Assembly (NCBI GenBank): GCA_002104895.1
Contig: MCFG01000384.1
Location: 1 to 30,000 of the forward strand
Length of the DNA stretch: 30,000 nucleotides
Direction of reading: 5' to 3'
Source of the DNA: Anaeromyces robustus
Taxonomy: Eukaryota > Neocallimastigomycota > Neocallimastigomycetes > Neocallimastigales > Neocallimastigaceae
The number at the start of each line of letters is the position of its first letter. Positions within the stretch are counted from its first letter, which is position 1. Positions 1 through 27,020 of the stretch are shown in pieces. The position numbers and the translations under genes were made by a program. A model generated the notes under the pieces. That model did no database searches. It was not told the origin of the DNA and saw only the letters and a program-made list of their open reading frames with translations.

Positions 1-1182
1 TTGTGTATGTCTTTTAATATCTATTGATTTTGGAACATATTCATCACTACCACTTGAAATTAATAAAATTGGACATTTTATATATTTTCTATGGTTTCCT
101 TCTATATAAATAGAATTATAAAATAATATTAAAATAGTTTAAAAATTAAAATAAGTTATTATTTTTAATGATATTTGATATTTATAGTTATTGTCTTTAA
201 AAATATAAAGCCAATATTAGTATTCTATTTTATACCTTTAAAATCTAAATTTAAAAATATTTTTCCCAATTCTTCATTGCTTAAATCTGTAGAGAACATA
301 TCATCAGTACCTCTATTTTATTAATAAATACATATAACATATATAATATTAATATAGCATTCTGTATTGTTTGTTATATTATTATTGTTATTCTTGTTAT
401 TATTATAATTAATATTAATATTAATTTTATTATTATCTACTTAATATCGTATAAAGACAAATATCTATTAGCTGTAATTGGTGCTTCATCTACTTCTGGT
501 GGCATATAATAATGACCTTTTCCTTGATTTACTAAATCTTTTGCTATATTAATTTTTTCATTTAATAATTTTTCTCCTTTTGAATACATTGCATATTCTC
601 TGTCTGAAACAGCACCTTGAAGAATTATTCCAGAAAGAAGATTTTTATATTTACCATATTTTACATAATACATTGCATCCTATTTATTATTATTTAATTA
701 TAATTGTATTTATTTATCATTATTCAAAAGAAATTAATTAAATTTTATATTCAATTTATTACATTTATTTGTTTTCAAGGAATTAAAAATTAATTTTAAA
801 TTAATATATTTAACTTTTAAATTAATTAATATTTAATCTTTACCTGTGCACCTGTAGAATGACCCATTAAAACTATTTTAAATTTTGAATTTTTATTATT
901 ATTAGCATTTTTATTTATTAAATAAGCTATTATGTCATCTATTTCTTGAATATCATTATCAAGGTTAACTTTTCCATAACCCAAATATGAACTTGATAAT
1001 AATGGTTGTACTAATGAATAATTAAATTTTTTAACAATTCTTGAAAGATTATCAATATAAGGCAAGGCAAGAAAACCATCTGTTAAACCACCAATAAATA
1101 TAAACTTATCAGCAATTTCTGGATTTGTTTCAAATAATGAAAGTCTTTTATCTTTATTATAAATCTCTAATTCTCCAAACAT
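1..1182 (-). CDS. DUF1749 (UPF0613) alpha/beta hydrolase, 3' part missing
   Basis: Partial gene that runs off the left edge. Hand-built exons on the minus strand are 1182-844, 679-441, 312-236 and 101-1; the introns (843-680, 440-313, 235-102) have GT/AG ends and the frame is kept across each join. Residues 107-113 read GHSTGAQ, the nucleophile elbow of an alpha/beta hydrolase with Ser109. Later exons carry GTDDMFSTDLS and an ISSGSDEYVP strand, whose Asp is the likely acid of the triad; the catalytic His should lie off the window. This pattern is that of the DUF1749 family, which is widespread in fungi and includes the siderophore esterase SidJ. The true substrate cannot be read from sequence. 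There is no signal peptide, so it is probably cytosolic. The start is the first ATG; an A-run lies just upstream. Family call is firm, function is not. Confidence 0.85.
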
Positions 1183-1550
1183 TTTAAAATGAAATTAAAA
1201 AAAAAAAAAAAACTAAAATAAATATAGAATATATTCTATATATAATTTTTAATTTAATAATTAATTTAATTAAATATATTTACATATATATAATTAATAA
1301 TGATTTATTAACAAACATTTTGTTAGATAAAGAAATTTATTTATAATTTTTCTGTAACACAATAAGAAAATAAAGTTTTTATATGTTGCACCAAACATTT
1401 ATATTATATATATTAAAAAAATAAAATTATAGTTTTTTTTATTCTGAATATGTATATATAATAATTATTACATATATTGTATTTTTAAAAATAAAATTAA
1501 TGTATGCTTTTAAAAGATTCATAAAAAATATTGATCAGGAAATAATAATA

Positions 1551-1552
<2 letters not shown>

Positions 1553-1594
<42 letters not shown>
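1553..1594. repeat. poly-A tract, about 42 nt
   Basis: Uninterrupted run of A in the spacer upstream of the DUF1749 gene. It has no flanking target duplication or retrotransposon body, so it is read as simple sequence rather than a retroposon tail. Confidence 0.9.
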
Positions 1595-1596
<2 letters not shown>

Positions 1597-2740
1597 AAAA
1601 TTATATTAATAAAATAAATAACAGATAATTAGTGTGATTTGTTATGTGTTATTATTAAATATGAAATTATAACATTTTTAATAATTTTTGTATTTTCTGC
1701 TTTTATTTAAATATTACAAAACTTCTTTATAGATTTATAATGGAAAAACATAAAATTTGGAATGATTTAATATAATAAAAATGATTTAGTTATATTATTT
1801 TAAATTTAATTTACATATAATTTTTATATTTAAGAATATTATTAGTAAACTATTTTAAGATAAATATAATAGAAAAAAAGTTAACAGTAAACTATTTAAA
1901 TAATTTAAATAACCTTAATAATTAAGATTAGAATTTTATTATTAGTTAATTTTAAAATAGTACCAATAAAATATTTTAAACAAAAAAAAAAAAGAAAGAA
2001 AATAAAATAAAATAAAACATTTAATTTTTTTAAAAATATTTATTTTACTATACTTCATTATAATATTTATTATATAAAAATAATATTATGATATACAAAA
2101 CGTTATTAAAAAAGTAGACACATTCACACAATAAATAAAGTAATAATTCTTTTTAATATCTCAAATAATAATCTTTAATAGTATTTATAATTTGTATTAA
2201 GTTTAATAAAATATATATATAAATATTTAGTTTGATTTGGATTTTGTGATTATTATTTTATAATACCTAGTATTTAAATAAGAAAAAAAGTTTTTAAAAT
2301 TAAAATTCTATTTTGTTATGATTTTTTGCAATTTATATGTTCATAAAAAATATTACTTTAAGTTAAAATATTTAATCAAAAGAATAAAGTAAATAAATTA
2401 TTTATATATATATTATTATAATTATATTTGAATATCATTTTATCTTTTTTTACCTTTAATTTTCAATATTTACAATAAGTGCTAAATTTATGTTTTATTA
2501 AAAAAGGAATTACAAATATTGAAACAAATTATTATCAAATTTAAATTAACAGTATATAATAAAATTTTTGTAATTAAAGCAATAATGAAAATTTAATAAA
2601 TAGCACTTAATAAAATAAAATAAATAAATAATAATTATTTATAAATATATTACTTGAAAAAGATATTTATTGTTTTTTAATAATTAAGATAAAAAATATA
2701 TAGAGATTTATATAGACAATAAAATGAATATAAATATTTG

Positions 2741-2780
<40 letters not shown>
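2741..2780. repeat. poly-A tract, 40 nt
   Basis: Second uninterrupted A-run in the same spacer, about 660 bp upstream of the repeat-protein start. Long A/T tracts like this commonly exclude nucleosomes in fungal promoters; that role here is inference. Confidence 0.9.
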
Positions 2781-2782
<2 letters not shown>

Positions 2783-3444
2783 AATCAATAATAATTAAGC
2801 GAAGTATATTAAATATAAATAAAATTTTAAAAAATTTTATTTTTTTATTATTTTATTATAATATTATTTTTTTGAATATAAAGAAAGTTTAATTTATATA
2901 TTTCTAATATACATATAGGAAATTTTTTTAATGTTATTTTTTAATCTTTAATTTTTTTCTTTTAGATTATACAACATGCTATGAGTCCAGTATTATAATA
3001 CTAATTATTTTTCATAAAAAACAATTATACTATACTTTTTATGTCAAATAACACTTATAGAAATTAAAAATACAATTTATATATTAAACTATATTATTAT
3101 TTGTTATTTATATATTAGCATTAAAAATATTAATTACTGTAGATCTTCTAAATTTATTTTGTTTTTATTTTGGAAGGTATTGAAATAAATTGTTTTATAA
3201 AAATATTTATATATATAGTACAATAAACATAAAAGAAATAATTTATTATTATTTTCTTTTAATTTAACACATATTATTAACTATATTAATTTCTTTTTTT
3301 CGACAATATTAATTAAATAATAAAATTATAATTATTTTTGAAACTACAAATATACATAAGAACTAAAAAAAAAAAAAAAATTGAATAAATAAATAAATAT
3401 ATTATAATAGTAATAATATATATTGTATTTATATATATATAAAG

Positions 3445-6400
3445 ATGAAAATACATGCTATTTTTTTTATTTTATCATTAGTATATACAAATACATTATC
3501 AAATCCGAATCCATGTATTAATGAAGAATATTGTTCAAATACATTAATAAATTCGAAACTTTCGACTTCAAATATTTCAAAAGATGAACTTAAATATAAA
3601 CAAAATTTAAAACATAATAATCATTTGGATGAAAAGACATTACAATCATGTGAAGAAGCTGCAAACCAATTTGTTGAATGTAATATGAAAAAATATTCGT
3701 CAGCAGAAGATTTATGTCAAAATGGTTATAGTAAATGTATGAATGCAATAAAATCTTATAATGAACTTTGTAATATTGAAAATTCTGAAACAAAAGAATT
3801 GGAATTATTATTGAAATCTAAATGTCAACTAGATAGTGTAGGTCAATTATGTTCTTTTTCACAAAATCTTTTAGATATAGATTTTGGATATGAAACAAAA
3901 ATTGATTTTTCACTAGAAGCTATAGAACCAAATTGTTATGATGAAAAATGTAGAAATATATTATTAAATTATTTAACATTTTATAAAAATAAAAATGAAT
4001 ATTATGACATACAGAGTTTTGAATATATTATTAAATATATTAATAGTAATGAATGTAACAAGCAAGATAATATATTTAAAAGAATATTTAATGGTATAAG
4101 TAATAGAATAAAAAGAAGTATTGGAAAAAAAGAAATGACAAAAGACGTTGAAGAAAAAGAAGAACAAGAAGCACAACAACAAGAATATATTAAAACAAAA
4201 GAGAAAAAAATAAATATTCTTGAAAAAAGAGGAAATAATAATAAAAATGGTGATGTGCCTTTAGGAATGAAAAATATTCTTAAAAATTATAAAAATAAGA
4301 GCGAAAAAAATGGTTTAGGGATAGGAAAAAATTCAAAAACTACAATAACAGATGATATTATTGATGACCTTGCCATGTACAGAAATATTGAAAAATCAAA
4401 TAATAAGGAGCCTGTAGATGATTTAGCTATGTATAGAAATACAGCTAATAAACCAGTTAATGAACCAATTGATGATTTAGCTATGTATAAAAATAAAGGT
4501 TATACAAGTGGCGAACCCATTGATGATTTATATATGCATAGAAATAAAGGCACAGTGGAAAAAGAACCTGTTGATGATCTATCTATGTATAGAAATAAAG
4601 GAACAATAAATAAAAAACCAATTGATGATTTAGCTATGTATAGAAATAAAGGAACAGTAAATAAAGAACCAGTTGATGATCTTTCTATGTATAGAAATAA
4701 AGGAACAACTAATAAAGAACCAGTTGATGATCTTTCTATGTATAGAAATAAAGGAACAGTAAATAAAGAACCAATTGATGATTTAGCAATGTATAGAAAT
4801 AAAGGAACAGTAAATAAAGAACCTGTTGATGATCTTTCTATGTATAGGAATAAAGGAACAACTAATAAAGAACCAGTTGATGATCTTTCTATGTATAGAA
4901 ATAAAGGAACAGTAAATAAAGAACCTGTTGATGATTTAGCTATGTACAGAAATAAAGGAACAGTAAATAAAGAACCAATTGATGATTTAGCTATGTATAG
5001 AAATAAAGGAACAGTAAATAAAGAACCAATTGATGATTTAGCTATGTATAGAAATAAAGGAAATACAAATAAAGAACCAATTGATGACCTTGCTATGTAT
5101 AAAAACAAAGGAACTACAGATAAAGAACCAATTGATGACCTTGCTATGTATAAAAACAAAGGAACTACAGATAAAGAACCGATTGATGATTTAGCTATGT
5201 ATAGAAATAAAGGTCAAACTAATAAAGAACCAATTGATGATTTAGCTATGTATAGAAATAAAGGTCAAACTAATAAAGAACCAATTGATGATTTAGCTAT
5301 GTATAGAAATAAAGGTCAAACTAATAAAGAACCAATTGATGATTTAGCTATGTATAGAAATAAAGGTCAAACTAATAAAGAACCAATTGATGATTTAGCT
5401 ATGTATAAAAACAAAGGAACTACAGATAAAGAACCAATTGATGATTTAGCTATGTATAGAAATAAAGGAACTACAAATAAAGAACCAATTGATGACCTTG
5501 CTATGTATAAAAACAAAGGAACTACAGATAAAGAACCAATTGATGATTTAGCTATGTATAGAAATAAAGGTCAAACTAATAAAGAACCAATTGATGATTT
5601 AGCTATGTATAGAAATAAAGGTCAAACTAATAAAGAACCAATTGATGATTTAGCAATGTATAGAAATAAAGGTCAAACTAATAAAGAACCAATTGATGAT
5701 TTAGCAATGTATAGAAATAAAGGTCAAACTAATAAAGAACCAATTGATGATTTAGCTATGTATAGAAATAAAGGTCAAACTAATAAAGAACCAATTGATG
5801 ATTTAGCTATGTATAGAAATAAAGGTCAAACTAATAAAGAACCAATTGATGATTTGGCCATGTACAGAAATAAGGGAACTACGGATAAAGAGCCAATTGA
5901 TGATTTAGCTATGTATAAGAACAAAGGAACAGTAAATAAAGAACCAATTGATGATCTAGGTATGTATAGAAATAAAGGAACTACAAACAAAGAGCCAGTT
6001 GATGACCTCGCTATGTATAAAAACAAAGGAACTACAGATAAAGAACCAATTGATGATTTAGCTATGTATAGAAATAAAGGAACTACTAATAAAGAGCCAA
6101 TAGATGATTTAGCTATGTATAGAAATAAAGGCCAAACTAATAAAGAGCCAATAGATGATTTAGCTATGTATAGAAATAAAGGCCAAACTAATAAAGAACC
6201 CGTTGATGATTTAGCTATGTATAAGAACAAAGGAACTACAGATAAAGAACCAATAGATGACCTTGCTATGTATAGAAATAAAGGTCAAATTAATAAAGAA
6301 CCAATTGATGATTTAGCTATGTATAGAAATAAAGGAACAGTAAATAAGGAACCAATTGATGATTTAGCTATGTATAGAAATAAAGGAACTACAAATAAAG

Positions 6401-9400
6401 AGCCAGTTGATGATTTAGCTATGTATAAAAACAAAGGAACTACAGATAAAGAACCAATAGATGATTTAGTGATGTATAGAAATAAAGGTCAAACTAATAA
6501 AGAACCAATTGATGATTTAGCTATGTATAGAAATAAAGGTCAAACTAATAAGGAGCCAATTGATGATTTAGCTATGTACAGAAATAAAGGTCAGACGAAT
6601 AAAGAACCTGTAGATGATTTAGCTATGTATAGAAATAAAGGTCAGACGAACAAAGAACCAATAGATGATTTAGCTATGTATAGAAATAAAGGAACTGTAA
6701 ATAAAGAACCAATTGATGATTTAGCTATGTATAGAAATAAAGGAACTACAGATAAAGAACCAATTGATGATTTAGCTATGTATAGAAATAAAGGACAAAC
6801 TAATAAAGAGCCAATTGATGATTTAGCTATGTATAGAAATAAAGGTCAAACTAATAAAGAACCAATTGATGATTTAGCCATGTATAAAAATAAAGGAACA
6901 ACTGATAAAGAGCCAGTTGATGATTTAGCTATGTATAGAAATAAAGGAACAACAAACAAAGAACCAATTGATGATTTAGCCATGTATTTTGCAAAAAATC
7001 CACAAGGAACTACTGATTACAGTAATACTTTAGGAATGAATAAAACGCAAAAAGATGAAAAAAAAGAACCAATTGATGATTTAGCAATGTACAGAAATAA
7101 AGGAACTGTTAGTAAAGAACCAGTAGATGATTTAGCAATGTATAGAAATAAAGGAACTGTTAACAAGGAACCAATTGATGACCTTGCTATGTATAGAAAT
7201 AAAGGTCAAACTAATAAAGAACCAATTGATGATTTAGCTATGTACAGAAATAAAGGTCAAACTAATAAAGAACCAATTGATGATTTAGCTATGTATAGAA
7301 ATAAAGGAACTACAAATAAAGAACCAATTGATGATTTAGCTATGTATAAAAACAAAGGAACTACAGATAAAGAACCAATTGATGATTTAGCTATGTATAG
7401 AAATAAAGGTCAGACGAATAAAGAACCAATTGATGATTTAGCTATGTATAGAAATAAAGGTCAAACTAATAAAGAACCAATTGATGATTTAGCTATATAC
7501 AGAAATAAAGGTCAAACTAATAAAGAACCAATTGATGACTTAGCTATGTACAGAAATAAAGGTCAAACTAATAAAGAACCAATTGATGATTTAGCTATGT
7601 ATAGAAATAAAGGTCAAACTAATAAAGAACCTGTAGATGATTTAGCTATGTATAGAAATAAAGGTCAAACTAATAAAGAACCTGTAGATGATTTAGCTAT
7701 GTACAGAAATAAAGGTCAAACTAATAAAACTAATAAAGAACCTGTAGATGATTTAGCTATGTATAGAAATAAAGGTCAAACTAATAAAGAACCTGTAGAT
7801 GATTTAGCTATGTATAGAAATAAAGGTCAAACTAATAAAGAACCAATTGATGATTTAGCAATGTATAGAAATAAAGGTCAAACTAATAAAGAACCAATTG
7901 ATGATTTAGCTATGTATAAAAATAAAGGCCAGACTAATAAAGAACCTGTAGATGATTTAGCTATGTACAGAAATAAAGGACAAACTAATAAAGAACCAAT
8001 TGATGACCTTGCTATGTATAGAAATAAAGGTCAAACTAATAAAGAACCAATTGATGACCTTGCTATGTATAGAAATAAAGGTCAAACTAATAAAGAACCT
8101 GTAGATGATTTAGCTATGTATAGAAATAAAGGTCAAACTAATAAAGAGCCAATTGATGACTTAGCTATGTATAAAAACAAAGGAACTACAGATAAAGAAC
8201 CAATTGATGATTTAGCTATGTATAGAAATAAAGGTCAGACGAATAAAGAACCAATTGATGATTTAGCTATGTATAGAAATAAAGGTCAGACGAATAAAGA
8301 ACCAATTGATGATTTAGCTATGTATAGAAATAAAGGTCAAACTAATAAAGAACCAATTGATGATTTAGCTATGTATAGAAATAAAGGACAAACTAATAAA
8401 GAGCCAATTGATGATTTAGCTATGTACAGAAATAAAGGTCAGACTAATAAAGAACCAATTGATGATTTAGCTATGTATAAAAACAAAGGCCAGACTAATA
8501 AAGAACCAATTGATGATTTAGCTATGTATAGAAATAAAGGACAAACTAATAAAGAACCAATTGATGACCTTGCTATGTACAGAAATAAAGGACAAACTAA
8601 TAAAGAACCAATTGATGACCTTGCTATGTATAGAAATAAAGGACAAACTAATAAAGAACCAATTGATGACCTTGCTATGTATAGAAATAAAGGTCAAACT
8701 AATAAAGAACCAATTGATGATTTAGCTATGTATAAAAATAAAGGTCAAACTAATAAAGAACCAATTGATGATTTAGCTATGTATAGAAATAAAGGTCAAA
8801 CTAATAAAGAACCAATTGATGATTTAGCTATGTATAAAAACAAAGGCCAGACTAATAAAGAACCTGTAGATGATTTAGCTATGTACAGAAATAAAGGACA
8901 AACTAATAAAGAACCAATAGATGACCTTGCTATGTATAGAAATAAAGGTCAAACTAATAAAGAACCAATTGATGATTTAGCTATGTATAGAAATAAAGGT
9001 CAAACTAATAAGGAACCAATTGATGATTTAGCTATGTACAGAAATAAAGGTCAAACTAATAAGGAACCAATAGATGACCTTGCTATGTATAGAAATAAAG
9101 GAACTACAAACAAAGAGCCAATTGATGACCTTGCTATGTATAAAAACAAAGGAACTACAGATAAAGAACCAATTGATGATTTAGCTATGTACAGAAATAA
9201 AGGTCAAGTTAATAAAGAACCAATTGATGATTTAGCTATGTATAGAAATAAAGGTCAAACTAATAAAGAACCAATTGATGATTTAGCTATGTATAAAAAC
9301 AAAGGAACAACTGATAAAGAACCAATTGATGATTTAGCTATGTATAGAAATAAAGGTCAAATTAGTAAAGAACCTGTTGATGATCTTGCCATGTATAGAA

Positions 9401-10494
9401 ATAAGGGAACTACAAACAAAGAACCAATTGATGATCTTGCTATGTACAAAAATAAAGGCACAGTCGATAAAGAACCTGTTGATGATTTAGCAATGTATAA
9501 AAATAAAGGAGCCACTTACAAAGAACCATCTGATGATCTAGGTATGTATAGAAATAAAGGTACAGTTTCCAAAGAACCTATAGATGACTTAGCAATGTAT
9601 AGAAACAAAGGAGTCACATATAAAGAACCAACTGATGATTTATCAATGTACAGAAATAAAGGTACAGTTTCCAAAGAACCTAATGATGATCTTGCAATGT
9701 ACAGAAATAAAGGCTCCAAAAATAGAGAACCAATTGATGATTTAGCAATGTACAAAAATAAAGGTAATGATAATAAAGAACCAACTGATGATTTATCTAT
9801 TTACAAAAATAAAAGTAGTAATACTAATACAGAACCACTTGATGATTTAGCAATTTACAGAAATAAACAATCTTCAGGAATAAAAAATAGTAACAGCGGT
9901 TCATTAAGAATGGGAAAAGGAAGTACAAGTACAAATACTAAATCTAATAATAATAAAAATGGTTTAGCGATAAATAAAAGTACTAGTAATAAGAATAATA
10001 ATGATATTATTGATGATCTTTCGATGTATAAAACTAAAGATAATACAAGTACTAATAAAGAACCTCTTGATGATTTATCAATGTATAGAAATAAAAGTAG
10101 TAGTTCTAATAAAGACATAATTGATGATTTAGCTATGGCTGATAGATCAAAAAGTGCTTCATCCAATAACTTCTATAATACTGCTTCTACTTCCTCAGGT
10201 ATTAAAAGCAGTAAAAAAAAATCAAGTAGTAGTCCATCTAGAAATTCCATATTGCGTATGGGAAAAATTGAAGATATTGCTTTAAAAAAAAAGAGAGAGG
10301 GTATAAGTGAAAATACTGAATATTCAACAGAAGAAATAATATTTGATGAAACTATTGATACAGAAATAAATACAAATAATGAAACAAATGAAATACCAAC
10401 AGATGAAATAATATTTGATGAAGAAGTATCTTCAACAATAGAAAATAATATACAAGAAAATCCTACAGAAACCCCAGACATAGAAGAAATATAA
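3445..10494 (+). CDS. giant secreted 17-residue-repeat protein (2349 aa), unrecognised
   Basis: Single open frame without introns. I do not recognise the family. Residues 1-19 (MKIHAIFFILSLVYTNTLS) look like a signal peptide. Residues 24-204 hold 12 cysteines in a helical-looking region; no cysteine follows. A basic linker (about 205-300) has two Kex2-like sites, IKR-S and LEKR-G. Residues 303 to about 2235 are about 110 units of consensus EPIDDLAMYRNKGQTNK. The first and last units are degenerate, and a non-repeat island sits at 6985-7065. The tail is Ser/Asn-rich, then acidic, with two IIFDE boxes (from 10330 and 10402). No C-terminal membrane helix or GPI signal is seen, so it is probably released or bound through the Cys domain. 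Repeats are charged and lack dibasic sites, so they are probably disordered. Possible roles (wall protein, adhesin, binding scaffold) are guesses. The ATG at 3445 is the only start that gives the signal peptide. Confidence 0.88.
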   Translation: MKIHAIFFILSLVYTNTLSNPNPCINEEYCSNTLINSKLSTSNISKDELKYKQNLKHNNHLDEKTLQSCEEAANQFVECNMKKYSSAEDLCQNGYSKCMNAIKSYNELCNIENSETKELELLLKSKCQLDSVGQLCSFSQNLLDIDFGYETKIDFSLEAIEPNCYDEKCRNILLNYLTFYKNKNEYYDIQSFEYIIKYINSNECNKQDNIFKRIFNGISNRIKRSIGKKEMTKDVEEKEEQEAQQQEYIKTKEKKINILEKRGNNNKNGDVPLGMKNILKNYKNKSEKNGLGIGKNSKTTITDDIIDDLAMYRNIEKSNNKEPVDDLAMYRNTANKPVNEPIDDLAMYKNKGYTSGEPIDDLYMHRNKGTVEKEPVDDLSMYRNKGTINKKPIDDLAMYRNKGTVNKEPVDDLSMYRNKGTTNKEPVDDLSMYRNKGTVNKEPIDDLAMYRNKGTVNKEPVDDLSMYRNKGTTNKEPVDDLSMYRNKGTVNKEPVDDLAMYRNKGTVNKEPIDDLAMYRNKGTVNKEPIDDLAMYRNKGNTNKEPIDDLAMYKNKGTTDKEPIDDLAMYKNKGTTDKEPIDDLAMYRNKGQTNKEPIDDLAMYRNKGQTNKEPIDDLAMYRNKGQTNKEPIDDLAMYRNKGQTNKEPIDDLAMYKNKGTTDKEPIDDLAMYRNKGTTNKEPIDDLAMYKNKGTTDKEPIDDLAMYRNKGQTNKEPIDDLAMYRNKGQTNKEPIDDLAMYRNKGQTNKEPIDDLAMYRNKGQTNKEPIDDLAMYRNKGQTNKEPIDDLAMYRNKGQTNKEPIDDLAMYRNKGTTDKEPIDDLAMYKNKGTVNKEPIDDLGMYRNKGTTNKEPVDDLAMYKNKGTTDKEPIDDLAMYRNKGTTNKEPIDDLAMYRNKGQTNKEPIDDLAMYRNKGQTNKEPVDDLAMYKNKGTTDKEPIDDLAMYRNKGQINKEPIDDLAMYRNKGTVNKEPIDDLAMYRNKGTTNKEPVDDLAMYKNKGTTDKEPIDDLVMYRNKGQTNKEPIDDLAMYRNKGQTNKEPIDDLAMYRNKGQTNKEPVDDLAMYRNKGQTNKEPIDDLAMYRNKGTVNKEPIDDLAMYRNKGTTDKEPIDDLAMYRNKGQTNKEPIDDLAMYRNKGQTNKEPIDDLAMYKNKGTTDKEPVDDLAMYRNKGTTNKEPIDDLAMYFAKNPQGTTDYSNTLGMNKTQKDEKKEPIDDLAMYRNKGTVSKEPVDDLAMYRNKGTVNKEPIDDLAMYRNKGQTNKEPIDDLAMYRNKGQTNKEPIDDLAMYRNKGTTNKEPIDDLAMYKNKGTTDKEPIDDLAMYRNKGQTNKEPIDDLAMYRNKGQTNKEPIDDLAIYRNKGQTNKEPIDDLAMYRNKGQTNKEPIDDLAMYRNKGQTNKEPVDDLAMYRNKGQTNKEPVDDLAMYRNKGQTNKTNKEPVDDLAMYRNKGQTNKEPVDDLAMYRNKGQTNKEPIDDLAMYRNKGQTNKEPIDDLAMYKNKGQTNKEPVDDLAMYRNKGQTNKEPIDDLAMYRNKGQTNKEPIDDLAMYRNKGQTNKEPVDDLAMYRNKGQTNKEPIDDLAMYKNKGTTDKEPIDDLAMYRNKGQTNKEPIDDLAMYRNKGQTNKEPIDDLAMYRNKGQTNKEPIDDLAMYRNKGQTNKEPIDDLAMYRNKGQTNKEPIDDLAMYKNKGQTNKEPIDDLAMYRNKGQTNKEPIDDLAMYRNKGQTNKEPIDDLAMYRNKGQTNKEPIDDLAMYRNKGQTNKEPIDDLAMYKNKGQTNKEPIDDLAMYRNKGQTNKEPIDDLAMYKNKGQTNKEPVDDLAMYRNKGQTNKEPIDDLAMYRNKGQTNKEPIDDLAMYRNKGQTNKEPIDDLAMYRNKGQTNKEPIDDLAMYRNKGTTNKEPIDDLAMYKNKGTTDKEPIDDLAMYRNKGQVNKEPIDDLAMYRNKGQTNKEPIDDLAMYKNKGTTDKEPIDDLAMYRNKGQISKEPVDDLAMYRNKGTTNKEPIDDLAMYKNKGTVDKEPVDDLAMYKNKGATYKEPSDDLGMYRNKGTVSKEPIDDLAMYRNKGVTYKEPTDDLSMYRNKGTVSKEPNDDLAMYRNKGSKNREPIDDLAMYKNKGNDNKEPTDDLSIYKNKSSNTNTEPLDDLAIYRNKQSSGIKNSNSGSLRMGKGSTSTNTKSNNNKNGLAINKSTSNKNNNDIIDDLSMYKTKDNTSTNKEPLDDLSMYRNKSSSSNKDIIDDLAMADRSKSASSNNFYNTASTSSGIKSSKKKSSSSPSRNSILRMGKIEDIALKKKREGISENTEYSTEEIIFDETIDTEINTNNETNEIPTDEIIFDEEVSSTIENNIQENPTETPDIEEI
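4351..10149 (+). repeat. 51-bp coding minisatellite, about 110 units
   Basis: In-frame tandem array inside the giant gene. Units 3 to 51 (4462-6960) are each exactly 51 bp with no indel. After the island in unit 52, units 53 to 105 (7066-9777) are again 51 bp, with one 9-bp insertion near 7720-7740. Core units differ by few bases; edge units are divergent, as expected if unequal exchange or conversion homogenises the middle. Assemblies and short reads will often collapse this region. Confidence 0.95.
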
Positions 10495-11772: not shown

Positions 11773-13800
11773 CTATTGAAGGTTATTTTCACCCTCTGAT
11801 TTATTATCATTTTCTTCATTTTCAATATTATCTTTTACTTCATTTTCACTTTGTATTATTTCATCTTTTTTTTCATTTATTTCATTTTCATTAACATCTT
11901 CATCCATATTATTTTTTTCTGTTTTCTCTAGTGTATCAATATAAGAAACTTCTTTTATATTGCCTTTAATTGGTGCAACAATATCTTCTATTATTGGATT
12001 ACTTTCAATATTATGCTTAACACCACCATAAACACCTTTTAAAAATCCATTTATAATTGATGGAACCAATATGATTACTATAATTTTACATATTTCCTCA
12101 TATATTTGTCTTTCTCTCATTGTCCATATTTTATGTTCTTCACGTTGACCATATTGTTCTACAGCTTCAACATATAATTTTAAATTCTTTATGATACAAT
12201 CTAAGAAAGATTTTAAGCAAGATATAGGTGCAAAAATTCTTAAAGTATTATAAATATTAAAATATAAATTAATCATTAATGCTAAATATGGATAAGATAA
12301 TAATATTTCTTGGGGCTTAAAAATCGGTATTGATGAAGTTGAATTGTCTCCATTATTATTTTCATTTGAATTTATATTGTCTTCAACTTTATTAATTCCA
12401 TCTTGTATATATTTTAATTGCGATTCATTATTCTTTTCATACATACTTTGTATTTCACATTCTTTAAACCAAGTAATACATTTATCTGTACCAATTTGAA
12501 TTTGATCAATTATAATACTTTCAACATTTTTCTCAAATAGTTTTTCCATAATATGTCTAAAATCAATACCATTTTTACCTAAAGACATACCAAAATACAT
12601 TACTTGTACAGATAAAGAAGAAAGTTTTGCTATATCTTTAATTAATGGTAATTTCAATTTGAAAACTTCTACTATATCATTTATATTAGTAGTAATATAG
12701 GATGAAAGAATTAAAGAATATGAAAATTCATTATTTGATGATTCATCCGACAATATATTAGTATTATTATTAGAATTATTAGAATTTATTAGATTATTTG
12801 TTTTATTGAAAAATACATTACTATTATTAATAAATATTTCTATGTATTGGGTTATAATTTCAATAAAATGTTCCCTAAGTAAATCTATATACTTTCTTAA
12901 ATACTCATCTGGAGAATAATCTTTTACTTTGATTTCTGATAATAATGATTTTAAATATATATCCCTTTGCTGAAGAAATATTATAGGTAATTCATGAGAC
13001 TTAAATAAATCCATTTTTCGTAAATAATTAATAATACGAATACATAAAGGTAATTTAATGTTACCCCTTAAAAGTTGAATAAGTTGTGTAATCATTAATG
13101 CACTTGTTTCTTCAACTTCTTTTAATATTCTTTGTAAAAGATTGGAATCGGTATGATTTGACAATATTTTTTTAGTATGATTTTTTAATTCCATGGCTTC
13201 ATCGTAATAGCCATTTCTAATAAAAGTATCTAAAAGTTGTGGTATTTCAAGAATTTCAACAATTTTAGAATGTTGGTTTAATATAAGATCAATTCTATTT
13301 TTATCATCAACAAATTGATCTAAACATTTTGTGAAATCTTTACATGCATCTTCTATATTATCTAAGATATTTAATGATGAATCAATTTTATCATTTGTAC
13401 TTGCAAAAGATTTATTTATTTTCTGTGAACATTCATTTGCTTCAAGAAAATATTTATAATTGTTAAATGTTACAGATACTAATTGTTGGTCAATATATTT
13501 ACTATGGTCTTCAATTAATTGAGGTTCCTTTTTTAATTCCTCCACAGAAGATGCCATTAAATGATTCATATATTGTTGATATTCCTCATCTTCAAGTATT
13601 TTTTTATCAATTAAATTTTCATTCCCTTTTTTTAATAAATTATTTTTATTTATTGAATTTAATTCTTCTTTTTGTCTTTGTTGTTTATTGGCTTCTGATA
13701 ATAAATCAACTAATAAATTATTGAAATGACTTTCAGTAAATTGCTCTTTATTAAATTCATTCTCATTAATATTAATATCATTGTTCATGATGTTGTTCAT
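11773..13800 (-). CDS. COG8: conserved oligomeric Golgi complex subunit 8
   Basis: 675 residues in one exon. COG8 (Dor1 family) is a subunit of the COG tether, which captures vesicles for retrograde traffic within the Golgi. Recognition rests on the ordered landmarks of the family: a long N-terminal helical part with coiled coil (about 85-190), LLDTFIRNGYYDEAMEL near 190-206, ITQLIQLLRGNIKLPLCIRI near 232-255, FLQQRDIYLKSLL, then EYLRKYIDLLREHFIEIITQ followed by EIF. Human COG8 has matching phrases in the same order, from memory of the family. Asn/Ser-rich inserts (about 340-360 and 465-490) and a Glu/Asn/Lys tail (from about 615) make it slightly longer than the roughly 610-residue human protein. 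No signal peptide, as expected for a peripheral cytosolic protein. Two in-frame ATGs lie close together (13800, 13788); the first is taken. Confidence 0.9.
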   Translation of the reverse strand: MNNIMNNDININENEFNKEQFTESHFNNLLVDLLSEANKQQRQKEELNSINKNNLLKKGNENLIDKKILEDEEYQQYMNHLMASSVEELKKEPQLIEDHSKYIDQQLVSVTFNNYKYFLEANECSQKINKSFASTNDKIDSSLNILDNIEDACKDFTKCLDQFVDDKNRIDLILNQHSKIVEILEIPQLLDTFIRNGYYDEAMELKNHTKKILSNHTDSNLLQRILKEVEETSALMITQLIQLLRGNIKLPLCIRIINYLRKMDLFKSHELPIIFLQQRDIYLKSLLSEIKVKDYSPDEYLRKYIDLLREHFIEIITQYIEIFINNSNVFFNKTNNLINSNNSNNNTNILSDESSNNEFSYSLILSSYITTNINDIVEVFKLKLPLIKDIAKLSSLSVQVMYFGMSLGKNGIDFRHIMEKLFEKNVESIIIDQIQIGTDKCITWFKECEIQSMYEKNNESQLKYIQDGINKVEDNINSNENNNGDNSTSSIPIFKPQEILLSYPYLALMINLYFNIYNTLRIFAPISCLKSFLDCIIKNLKLYVEAVEQYGQREEHKIWTMRERQIYEEICKIIVIILVPSIINGFLKGVYGGVKHNIESNPIIEDIVAPIKGNIKEVSYIDTLEKTEKNNMDEDVNENEINEKKDEIIQSENEVKDNIENEENDNKSEGENNLQ

Positions 13801-15127: not shown

Positions 15128-15196
15128 ATGCGCCCCATTGCGAAACGCAACATTGCGAATTGCAACATTGCGAAATGCAACATTGCGAAATGCAAC
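15128..15196 (-). repeat. right terminal inverted repeat block
   Basis: Read on the minus strand it holds four 15-bp subunits (TTGCATTTCGCAATG twice, then variants with AATTC and GTTTC middles) followed by GGGCGCATAA. The left end has only two full subunits, so the ends differ in copy number. Confidence 0.75.
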
Positions 15197-15211: not shown

Positions 15212-16244
15212 TTATACTAGAAAAAAGAAAAAATTTATACTAGAAAAAGAAAAAAAAAATTATAAATTTGTATAAAATGGTTTAACAATAATATTTTTAA
15301 TTAATTGAATAATATTGTTATAAAAATGTACATCATGTGATATTATGATTAAAAACAATATTTTTATGGAATTTGAAATTATATTCTTTTTGATTTAGGA
15401 AAATAAAAAATTTATACCAAAAAATTTTCCATTATTATATAACTTTATTTATTATATTTTTGGTAAAAAAATATAAAATAATTATAAAATCTAAAAAAAA
15501 AAATATTTATTAAAATTTTTAAATTTCCATTTTTATTTGTTTAGTTTTAATATATTATATTAAAAATTAATAAAATCTAGTTATTTATTTTAACATTCAG
15601 GTTAATTTATATCACATATACTATCTAAAATTTTTATTCTATTATAAATGTAAATTATTTTTTTTTTTTTTTTTTGAAATTCTTTAAACTGCTTTTTGTT
15701 TTTTTTTTTTTGTTAATTAATATTGAACTATAATATTAAATTAAAAGATATAAAAAAATAATTTTACAAGTCATCAGTATTTTAGTTCTTGTAATCATTA
15801 TCTATAATAATTAAATTATAATTTCAATAGAACATAATATTATATATTATATTGATATTATTAATATTTTGCAAATTAATTATGAATAAAGTTTCAAAAT
15901 AAAAAAAAGGAGAAATGATCACCATATATTATATATTAATCTAATATATGATTACTTATTGTATACAAATAAAATTTACCATATTTATAATATTGTTTAT
16001 ATTTATAAATGCTTAATTTTATTATCAATTCAAATATTTTTTTTATTAATTAATTTTTGATGATTTATTTTTAAAAAACCTCTATTGTTAAAGTTAATAT
16101 TGTTATTTAATAATTAATTTATATTATTTATATATATTTATACATACATGACATAGTTTAATTTTTTTTTTTTTTATCTTTTTTCTTTCATTTAGTAGAG
16201 ATTATTTTGTTTTATTTTTTTTTTTTTTTTTGATAAAAAAAAAA
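15212..16244. other. mannanase upstream region
   Basis: AT-rich DNA with several T-runs (about 15658-15675, 15701-15711, 16161-16173, 16213-16231), the last one ending 14 bp before the start codon. No gene is seen. A 13-mer ATCATGTGATATT at 15332-15344 repeats the one at 14022-14034. Confidence 0.5.
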
Positions 16245-19200
16245 ATGGTTAATTTTTCAAAAATAATAAGTTCTCTTGCATTATTAGCAGCGCCAGCCGT
16301 TGCTACAATTGGAGGATATGTATACACCGAAGGAACAAATTTCTATATTGATGGGAAAAAAATTTATTTCTCAGGAACAAATACCTGTAAATATCAAAAC
16401 ATTGTAAATCTCTTTGCCTATTTATATTATTATTAAATATATATTATTATTATTTATTTGTTTATTTATTTATTATTTATTTATTATTTATTTATTTATT
16501 ATTTAAATATCAATATATATTTTAAAATTTACATTTGTATAACTGAAATTATAATTAATGAAATTTTATCAAATAAAAATTTTAATGTAATTTCAATAAT
16601 TGAAATTTCAAAAATGAATTGCAAAAATTAAATTCTAAAAAAATTATTTGTAAAATATATAAGACTTTTTACATAGTTCACAAAATGAAAGAGTTGATCT
16701 TGCCCTTGAGGTTTCTGCTAAACATAATCTTCAAGTAGTTCGTGCATGGGCATTTTGTGATTATAATGGTTGTGGTGATAAGCAATTTGTTAAATTCGAA
16801 AATGGAAAAGTAATTATAAAAATAAATTCTATAATAATTCCAATAAAAAAGCAATATTCTTTTTTATTTAAATATAACAAAATAATAACAACTATTTTTA
16901 TTTTAATATAAAGGCTATTTTCCTTGAAGATAATATGGAATCAATTGATTATTTTATTGCTGCTGCTTCACAAAGAAATATCAGATTAGTCTTAGCCTTT
17001 ACTGTAAAATATTCATAAATAATAAATATATTAATAAATATATATAGACAAATTAATATGATAAAAATTTATTAAAATTATAATTTATTATAATTAAAAA
17101 GAATAACTGGACTGATTATGGTGGTATGGATGCATGGGTTAAAGGCCTTGGTGGAAAATATCATGATGATTTCTATACTGATAAAGAAATTCGTAAAACA
17201 TTCAAAAGTTATATTAAAACCATAGTTACTCGTATTAATCGTCATACAAATATTCGTTATAGTGATGATCCAACTATTTTCTCTTGGCAATTAGCTAACG
17301 AACCAAGATGTGGAGATGGACCATCTGGACTTCCTCAATCCGGTAAATGTACACCAGAAGTTATTACTGAATGGGCTAATGATATTAGTTCATATATTAA
17401 AGAACTTGATAAAAATCATCTTGTCTCAGTTGGTTGTGAAGGTATTATATCGATAATTTTTTCTATATTTAAATACATAACTAGAAATATTCTTATAAAA
17501 AATAAAAAATAAAAAATAAAAAATAAACAATAAAAATAATATATTAAAAAAAAATATCATAACAAAAATAGGTTTTGGACTTGAAGCACCATCAGGTTCA
17601 AAAGGATTATATGCTTATAAATACGAAGAAGGAACAGATTTTGAAACTCTCACAGCATTACCAAATATCGACTATAACACATATCATTATTATCCAATTC
17701 CATGGGGTATGACTGATTTAATTGCACATACTAAAGATTGGATTGAAGCTCATCAAGCCGTTGGTAAAAAATTAAATAAACCAGTTGTATTTGAAGAATG
17801 GGGACTTGAAACACCAAAGGATTGTTCAAAAGAAGAACGTATTCAATATTATAAAACTTGGACTAAACAAATTCTTGATGCTGATGTTCCAATGAATATG
17901 TTTTGGTATACTGTTGGTGCTGATTATTATGGAACTGGTAATATATTAATAAATAATTATGATATATTTATTAATAAAATATTATATGTATTAATATTTA
18001 TTATCTATATAAATTATATTATCATTACTAGATAATTATATTCTCAAAGAGGATGAATTAACTGAATCAATTGATCCATTTACTGGTAAATATATATGTA
18101 TATTAATATTTAATACATTTTGAAATTAATAAAAATAATTATTTAGTATTTTATTTTATTTTATTTTATTTTATTTTATCTTATTTTACTTTTTTTTTTT
18201 TTTTTTTCTAAAAAAAAATAACAATAAAAATATTATTATATGTACATATTAATTATATATACCTTTTTAAATTTCATTACTACAGAGGCTATGTTGGAAA
18301 AAAGTGATTACCAATTAAAGACCAAATCTATTGGAAGAACTGATTTACCATCGATTTATTGGAAAGTAGAAGGATGTGGTGATTTATGGAGTCAATGTTC
18401 AAAGTAAGAATAATATAATTATATAATTATGAATATAAAAAAAAATTATCCAATCAATATTTATAATAACATAATATAATAACATTTTTAATAGTCTTTC
18501 AACTCAACCAGGTGTAAAATGTTGTTGTCATGGATGTCAATGTGTTTCTCATGATGATCTTTATGCTCAATGTAAACCAAGAGCACCAGGTATTAAAAAA
18601 AAAAAATAGAAATGATTTATATATAATAATATATATATTTAAATTTATATATATATTTGTATATTCATTTAATTATTAAAAAAAAAAAAATAGACTACAG
18701 AAACTCAACAATTCCAGATGCTGTAGAAATTGAACGTCTTCCAGGCGGTTCAGCACCAGTTACACCTAAAACAACTACTACCTCAGGAAGTTCACCAACT
18801 TCAGATACATCATGGTACCTTTTTATAAATAATAATTAAATAAAAAAAAAAAATAATATAAAGCATTGGTAACACTAAAATAATATTAATAATAATAATA
18901 ATAATAATAATTAAATACAATTAAAATAAATAGTTTCTCTATAGCATTAAATTACCCATGTTGTCAAGGTAATAACGTTGTTTATATAGATGATGATGGT
19001 GAATGGGGTTATGAAAATAATAACTGGTAAATTAACAATATAATATTATTTATATATAATATAAAAAATAGTAACTTGTATACTAATTTTGATTTAAATA
19101 TTTATAAATAAAAAAAAGGTGTGGTATTGGTAAAGGAAAATCAGAATCATGTACAGGAAAAAGTCAAGGGTAATTTAATCAATATATTATACAATAAATA

Positions 19201-26735: not shown

Positions 26736-27020
26736 ATGGTAAAGGTTCTTGTCCTTGGTGGTGTTGGTTTTATTGGAAGAAATTTATGTGCATACTTAAT
26801 CGAAAATGATTTAGTAGACCAAGTTACTGTTGCTGATAAAGTTTTACCAGCAACTGCTTATTTAAATGACAGACATAAGAAGGCTTTCGATAGTCCAAAA
26901 CTTACTTTTAAACAAGCTAATTTAACTAATGCAGGTATGTATTTTTTTTAGAAAAATTTTTTTAACTTAATAAATAATCAATAAATATTATATATACAAA
27001 GATACCAACAAACAAACACA

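Follow-up and report, generated by a model that had tools for sequence, protein, structure and literature searches.

A giant, probably secreted protein of Anaeromyces robustus with about 110 copies of a 17-residue unit whose core is under purifying selection

A single open reading frame of Anaeromyces robustus was found to encode a giant protein consisting mostly of about 110 copies of a 17-residue unit, and comparison of the codons used in these units showed that the core motif of the unit is maintained by purifying selection. The frame is located in a window of 30,000 nucleotides (positions 1 to 30,000 of contig MCFG01000384.1; 'window' refers here to this whole stretch). We tentatively characterize the product as a secreted, unanchored extracellular protein that would display its many copies of one motif to a putative partner, while a cysteine-rich head would hold it at the cell wall or at a surface complex; we see close to an even chance, though somewhat less, that this reading is right. 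About 110 selected copies in one probably secreted protein would make a strong natural case of multivalency based on linear motifs, and the array would be a ready-made bait for finding the partner.

The frame (3445-10494, forward strand) runs from ATG to TAA through 2349 codons with no internal stop; the intact 7-kb frame proposed in the first-pass annotation was thus confirmed. The computed pI of the 269.5-kDa product is 5.46. Across the array, the other five reading frames contain 49 to 572 stops each; an antisense open frame at 4500-5159 was set aside as a by-product of the array. The GC content of the gene is 27.2% versus 13.7% in positions 1-3444 of the window, with a range of 9-29% among the kilobases of the window. 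Coordinates of the features are given in Table 1.

Table 1. Features of the gene and of the encoded protein (positions in the window; aa, amino acid residues)
Feature	Position	Strand	Basis
Whole open reading frame, 2349 aa, 269.5 kDa	3445..10494	+	translation
Signal-peptide-like N terminus, aa 1-19; putative cleavage point	3445..3501	+	hydropathy, sequence
10-Cys domain, aa 69-204; Cys 24 and Cys 30 precede it	3649..4056	+	Cys pattern, profile
Basic linker, aa 206-302; three KR sites (aa 212, 223, 261), two LxM/LxI..K motifs	4060..4350	+	sequence
Repeat array of 110 units anchored by DDL, aa 303-2235; consensus EPIDDLAMYRNKGQTNK	4351..10149	+	repeat and codon analysis
Array interruption, aa 1185-1208, with LGM..K motif	6997..7068	+	sequence
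Degenerate array gap, aa 2142-2186, with LRMGK and LAINK motifs	9868..10002	+	sequence
C-terminal tail, aa 2236-2349; Ser-rich, then acidic, with KKKR (aa 2281-2284) and IIFDE twice; hydrophobic anchor absent	10150..10491	+	sequence

The protein contains no Trp and nine N-glycosylation sequons in total. It has exactly 12 cysteines, all of them close to the N terminus as the annotation had it (aa 24, 30, 69, 79, 91, 98, 109, 127, 136, 164, 169 and 204). A signal peptide had been proposed as well, and hydropathy supports a signal-peptide-like start, with a compatible hydrophobic stretch at aa 4-14; the protein is probably secreted. The hydrophobic C terminus expected of a GPI-anchored wall protein is absent: within the last 25 residues the best mean hydropathy over 12 residues is -0.84.

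The expected size of the array, about 110 repeats over some 1930 residues, agreed with the 110 DDL anchors that we counted in aa 303-2235. The spacing between successive anchors is exactly 17 residues in 101 of 109 cases, DDLAMY occurs 94 times and DDLxM[YH] 106 times, and 39 units are identical to EPIDDLAMYRNKGQTNK. Tandem Repeats Finder placed 107 copies with period 51 and 85% matches at 4396-9867. A constant spacing between DDLAMY and RNKG, claimed earlier for every unit, holds for the 102 of 110 units in which the register DDLx[MI][YH][RK]NKG is complete; it does not hold for the other eight (two at the array start, five near the array end and one at the mid-array interruption), and the array is also broken by the interruption, by the degenerate gap and by an additional TNK close to aa 1427. 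In all 101 in-register units seven of the 17 positions, P2, D4, D5, L6, N11, K12 and G13, are invariant, with M8 and Y9 nearly so. More than one codon is in use at six of the seven invariant positions (the exception is D4, GAT throughout); together with the invariance this excludes a chance origin of the repeat.

Six further motifs, L-x-[MI]..K without DD, lie on either side of the array (aa 273, 291 and 2270) or within it (aa 1196, 2154 and 2174); what they have in common with the array unit is L-x-M/I plus a later K. In 265 pooled non-array residues (the motif at aa 1196 was excluded) five were observed where 0.43 were expected, a count that no shuffle out of 5000 attained, though this test flatters a motif that was defined after the sequence had been inspected. 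These motifs may be relics of older units.

The codon comparison was made for the 101 in-register units, with pN/pS computed pairwise. Mean diversity was 0.248 at third codon positions, 0.119 at first and 0.084 at second positions; the units differ from each other chiefly by silent changes. The pN/pS ratio was 0.101 for core residues 1-13 (0.031 without positions 3, 7 and 10) and 0.489 for linker residues 14-17. We ran 300 neutral simulations under AT-rich substitution, 100 at each of the transition biases 1, 3 and 6, and drew 40 unit change-counts in every run. Units were independent copies of the consensus, free of shared descent and of exchange between units; core pN/pS fell between 0.48 and 1.98 and linker pN/pS between 0.36 and 4.88. 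As the observed core value, 0.10, was below every neutral simulation, the core is constrained and purifying selection maintains its motif. The linker value is inside the neutral range, and the linker is under little or no constraint.

This result already strains one alternative, a near-neutral spacer or stalk grown by unequal crossing-over, where length would count and the motif would not; the seven positions without a single replacement in 101 units argue against it too. Still, mean base differences from the consensus are 8.6 in the first 14 in-register units, 10.8 in the last 8 and 4.0 in the 79 units between them, an end-divergent pattern roughly as predicted for unequal exchange, even if 15 of the 79 middle units differ at eight or more bases. 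Among fungal phyla, Neocallimastigomycota are also reported to have the highest number of low-complexity regions per genome (PMC11878562). On balance, we regard a mere spacer as rather unlikely.

Composition and AlphaFold2 prediction from a single sequence, both weak evidence, suggest that the array could be disordered. Its hydropathy, 0.349, is under the order boundary of 0.416; the fraction of charged residues (FCR) is 0.356 and the net charge per residue 0.009 (a net charge of -17 across 1933 residues). For eight units (136 residues, no alignment) AlphaFold2 drew eight short low-confidence helices at a pLDDT of 38.8. The idea of one amphipathic helix per unit was unsupported: four segments were tested on two scales, and in these eight tests the observed moment was equalled or exceeded by 33 to 92% of shuffles.

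A nearly balanced polyampholyte could also be a self-associating matrix polymer, with the acidic half of one unit pairing with the basic half of another and forming a hydrated extracellular gel or coat that needs no separate partner. Charge is indeed arranged in blocks (blockiness 0.0894 versus a maximum of 0.0765 in 100 shuffles), and strong conservation would also be expected under self-association, which counts against the display of a motif to a partner. Yet charge pairing alone would not need invariant L6, N11 and G13 or near-invariant M8 and Y9. We consider a self-associating polymer unlikely, though with a chance that has to be taken seriously.

We favour motif display, as constraint is strong on the 10-13 residue core and slight or absent on the linker, the spacing is constant and the head is of a kind common to surface-type proteins. 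The head would hold the protein at the cell wall or at a surface complex, and the presumably disordered, nearly charge-balanced tail would expose about 110 copies of DDLxMY(R/K)NKG, each a separate low-affinity site for a putative extracellular partner; repetition would bring avidity and reach, and the Q/T/V-N/D-K linkers would be free spacers. The multivalent array envisaged in the first-pass annotation is thereby favoured by the selection on the motif, with binding as the presumed role.

Within its own genome (70,169,043 bases, 769 contigs) the unit appears to be confined to this gene. The DNA pattern for DDLxMY matched at 105 forward positions, 104 of them inside the gene, and at one reverse position (C187), where the frame reads through a stop codon. 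The same pattern read backward, used as a control, gave two forward matches and one reverse match, so the two matches outside the gene are at chance level. As a protein query (E up to 0.001) the unit retrieved no other locus among the best 50 candidates, and matches to the protein tail were likewise confined to this locus. A pattern derived from residues 1-385 matched 27 stretches of viral contigs, none encoding a relative, and a 139-residue piece of the array had no match there; in one scan of prokaryote genome contigs the same piece matched nine stretches, none of them a relative. As these collections are not fungal, the viral and prokaryote results say little about fungi.

That the unit belongs to no described family held for Pfam, where no credible family was found, and the Cys domain had no credible match in Pfam, NCBIfam or PDB sequences. 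For the whole protein, Extensin_1 (Pfam) scored above the cut-off at E 2e-54; as no single stretch passes alone and the best one spans just a single residue, this score was attributed to the repeats. Below the cut-off were OrsD (Pfam, whole protein), RGI_lyase, DUF4951 and His_binding (Pfam, eight units, no passing stretch) and Sigma-70 (Pfam and NCBIfam, N-terminal part). The string DDLAMY was not found in the literature searched.

The Cys domain, on the other hand, is not a one-off; the same genome encodes a large family to which it belongs and whose members have a common ten-cysteine pattern. Residues 1-302 as query gave one weak relative on C310 (E 0.00167), and the reverse search from this relative gave 48 places at E up to 1, including the giant's gene at E 0.0128. 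A typical member, L082, retrieved at least 64 places at E up to 0.01, a count that includes L082 itself, genes represented by more than one place and a small number of frames containing stops; the giant's gene is absent from it. Our description of the family covers 30 loci from the search with the C310 relative and six members fetched later, a set overlapping the 64 places.

The shared trait is ten cysteines at nearly fixed spacing. The drawn pattern fits 14 of the 30 loci, the giant's gene among them; the other 16 are incomplete, partial, made of tandem half-modules or differently spaced. The giant's head has the ten cysteines in family order and keeps C6-x8-C7 and C8-x4-C9, while 6 residues separate C3 from C4 and 10 separate C4 from C5, where 7 and 13 are usual in the family. 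The family consensus CQxDENGxLCP and CKSKxC is partly kept (CQLDSVGQLCS and CYDEKC in the giant).

Against a profile of 13 members, built without the giant, the head scored 28.0 bits; the best scores of shuffled heads were 3.0 in 2000 full shuffles and 15.6 in 2000 shuffles with cysteines fixed. With the discovery relative, L063, left out as well (12 members), the head scored 22.0 bits versus at most 8.8 in 3000 Cys-fixed shuffles, and longer frames holding the whole head domain scored 11.0-17.7 bits with the same profile, still above the best shuffle; the drop is probably due to the bias correction for repeats. When open frames of 80 residues or more were collected from all the loci and from the window (252 in total), the best 60 were family loci or pieces of the giant, and the six members fetched later scored 41.6 to 96.3 bits. 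By these scores, and at 15-26% identity to 13 other aligned members, the giant's head is a divergent member of the family. A structure model of the head is all-helical, with a pLDDT of 55.8 that is too weak for reliance; we assume that the ten cysteines form disulfides.

In eight members scanned there was no credible Pfam match to the head; hits on L081 and L089 were below the cut-off and were set aside. Nor was the family named in the titles retrieved on anaerobic-fungal secretomes, on Cys-rich, chitin-binding or GPI proteins, on scaffoldins or on adhesins. What accompanies the head varies. Hydrophobic GPI-like C termini were present in 16 of 34 frames examined (one frame being a piece of the giant and several being incomplete); L064 combines the head with chitin-binding domains (Pfam Chitin_bind_1, E 8.6e-20), and in L083 a subtilase domain (Pfam Peptidase_S8, E 1.3e-22) is followed by tandem half-modules. 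In L022, L063 and L093 the head is joined to a Thr-rich stalk with PVDPEPTE repeats, and in L094 it bears a GNTPGGSP insert. The member closest to the giant in plan, judged from its translated frame, is L095 (C478:7700-8800, reverse strand), a miniature with a head, four 13-residue HTEDYSRT(S/K)NGN repeats, which like the giant's units combine acidic, Tyr, basic and Asn-Gly parts, and an acidic end; there is no anchor within the 335 residues read of its 352-residue open frame, about 17 residues lying outside the reading.

From this domain company the family looks like a surface or extracellular module with varied tails, and the GPI-like C termini, the chitin-binding domains and the subtilase domain of relatives point to a cell-surface setting. 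We only infer that the giant shares this location, as its head is very divergent, is missing from the 64 places found with L082 and was first linked by a weak match. If the family is common to other anaerobic gut fungi, it would be a general surface module. Seven places of the family lie on one 70-kb contig (C291), likely a local expansion. On C138, the neighbouring loci L083, L084, L091 and L092 were read as subtilase-type with tandem half-modules, some with Thr/Lys-rich tails, the subtilase domain being confirmed by Pfam in L083 alone.

A signal-peptide-like start followed by many identical units could also indicate a precursor cut by proteases into signalling or otherwise bioactive peptides, such as a Kex2-processed repeat protein. 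Proteins of this class, secreted fungal proteins that like the giant have many near-identical units (PMC7329392, PMC6339444), are reported in Neocallimastix and Piromyces (PMC7329392). Their published criterion, however, is Kex2 sites between repeats (PMC7329392), and no such sites separate the giant's units: a dibasic pair (KK) is present in just 2 of 109 inter-anchor stretches, with neither KR nor RR in any, so Kex2-type release of single units is unsupported. KR at aa 212, 223, 261 and 2283 flanks the array, and cleavage there could release the array intact by removing the head and the tail. We judge a peptide precursor to be quite improbable.

A plan similar to that predicted for the giant, a signal peptide, a Cys-rich region and a long repetitive C-terminal part with no GPI anchor, is described for the repetitive secreted effector Rsp3 of Ustilago maydis (PMC5923269). 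Rsp3 decorates the hyphal surface and is described as predicted non-processed (PMC5923269), whereas its repeats are cleaved by Kex2 according to PMC7329392. Rsp3 differs from the giant in its several kinds of degenerate repeat and in the smaller size of its gene, with alleles of 1.8-2.6 kbp (PMC5923269); the plans are compared from description only, we claim no kinship, and the plant-pathogen role does not transfer. Also comparable are the AGL proteins of Glomeromycotina, a symbiotic group of fungi; they are tandem-repeat proteins that are specific to the lineage, secreted and disordered (PMC8786786). AGLs are small and Pro/Gly- or Gly/Asn-rich, while the giant's array is charged, with Tyr and Met.

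One could speculate that the array is an alternative cellulosome scaffold, its motif being a putative binding site for dockerins or for another common module of secreted enzymes. Dockerins are plentiful: at least 150 matches to CBM_10 (fungal dockerin) were found in the genome, where 150 of 683 candidates were scored, with none in 14 control genomes; together with the low GC content of the window they are the mark of an anaerobic gut fungus, in line with the first-pass annotation. Known docking domains are much longer than the DDLxMY-type motif, which counts against such a scaffold, and we hold it to be very improbable. CBM_10-like dockerins have been linked to anaerobic fungi (PMC10978972), and known scaffoldins are reported to be large and repeat-rich (PMC8262932). 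The ScaA group of anaerobic-fungal scaffoldins, like the giant large and repeat-rich and, as presumed for the giant, secreted, is said to include membrane-anchored and unanchored members; compared by description, the giant with its 269.5 kDa is smaller than the conserved ScaA group, for which a size above 500 kDa is reported (PMC8262932, PMC10978972). A conserved fungal cohesin is described as elusive, and the attachment of enzyme complexes in anaerobic gut fungi as unresolved (PMC8262932); the former leaves room for a second scaffold system. In such a system ten-Cys heads would share the anchoring, some would carry their own arrays, and the giant's approximately 110 DDLxMYRNKG copies would be putative docking sites for one class of secreted proteins, possibly dockerin enzymes, an arrangement like a cellulosome in outline but using linear motifs where a cellulosome has folded cohesins; we give this extension only a slim chance.

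Other genes were recognized in the window downstream of the giant. A Dor1-like (COG8) gene lies on the reverse strand at 11773-13800 (Pfam Dor1, E 5.4e-77). On the forward strand at 16200-18700, exons of what is probably an intron-containing GH5 glycoside hydrolase gene precede pieces of Cys-rich exons, the Pfam Cellulase match (E 0.00015) covering one exon and falling just under the cut-off. A probable first exon of an NAD-dependent epimerase is located at 26736-26951 on the forward strand (Pfam Epimerase, above the cut-off). Finally, a short tandem repeat of CATTGCGAAATGCAA (4.1 copies, 93% matches) is present in AT-rich surroundings at 15136-15196.
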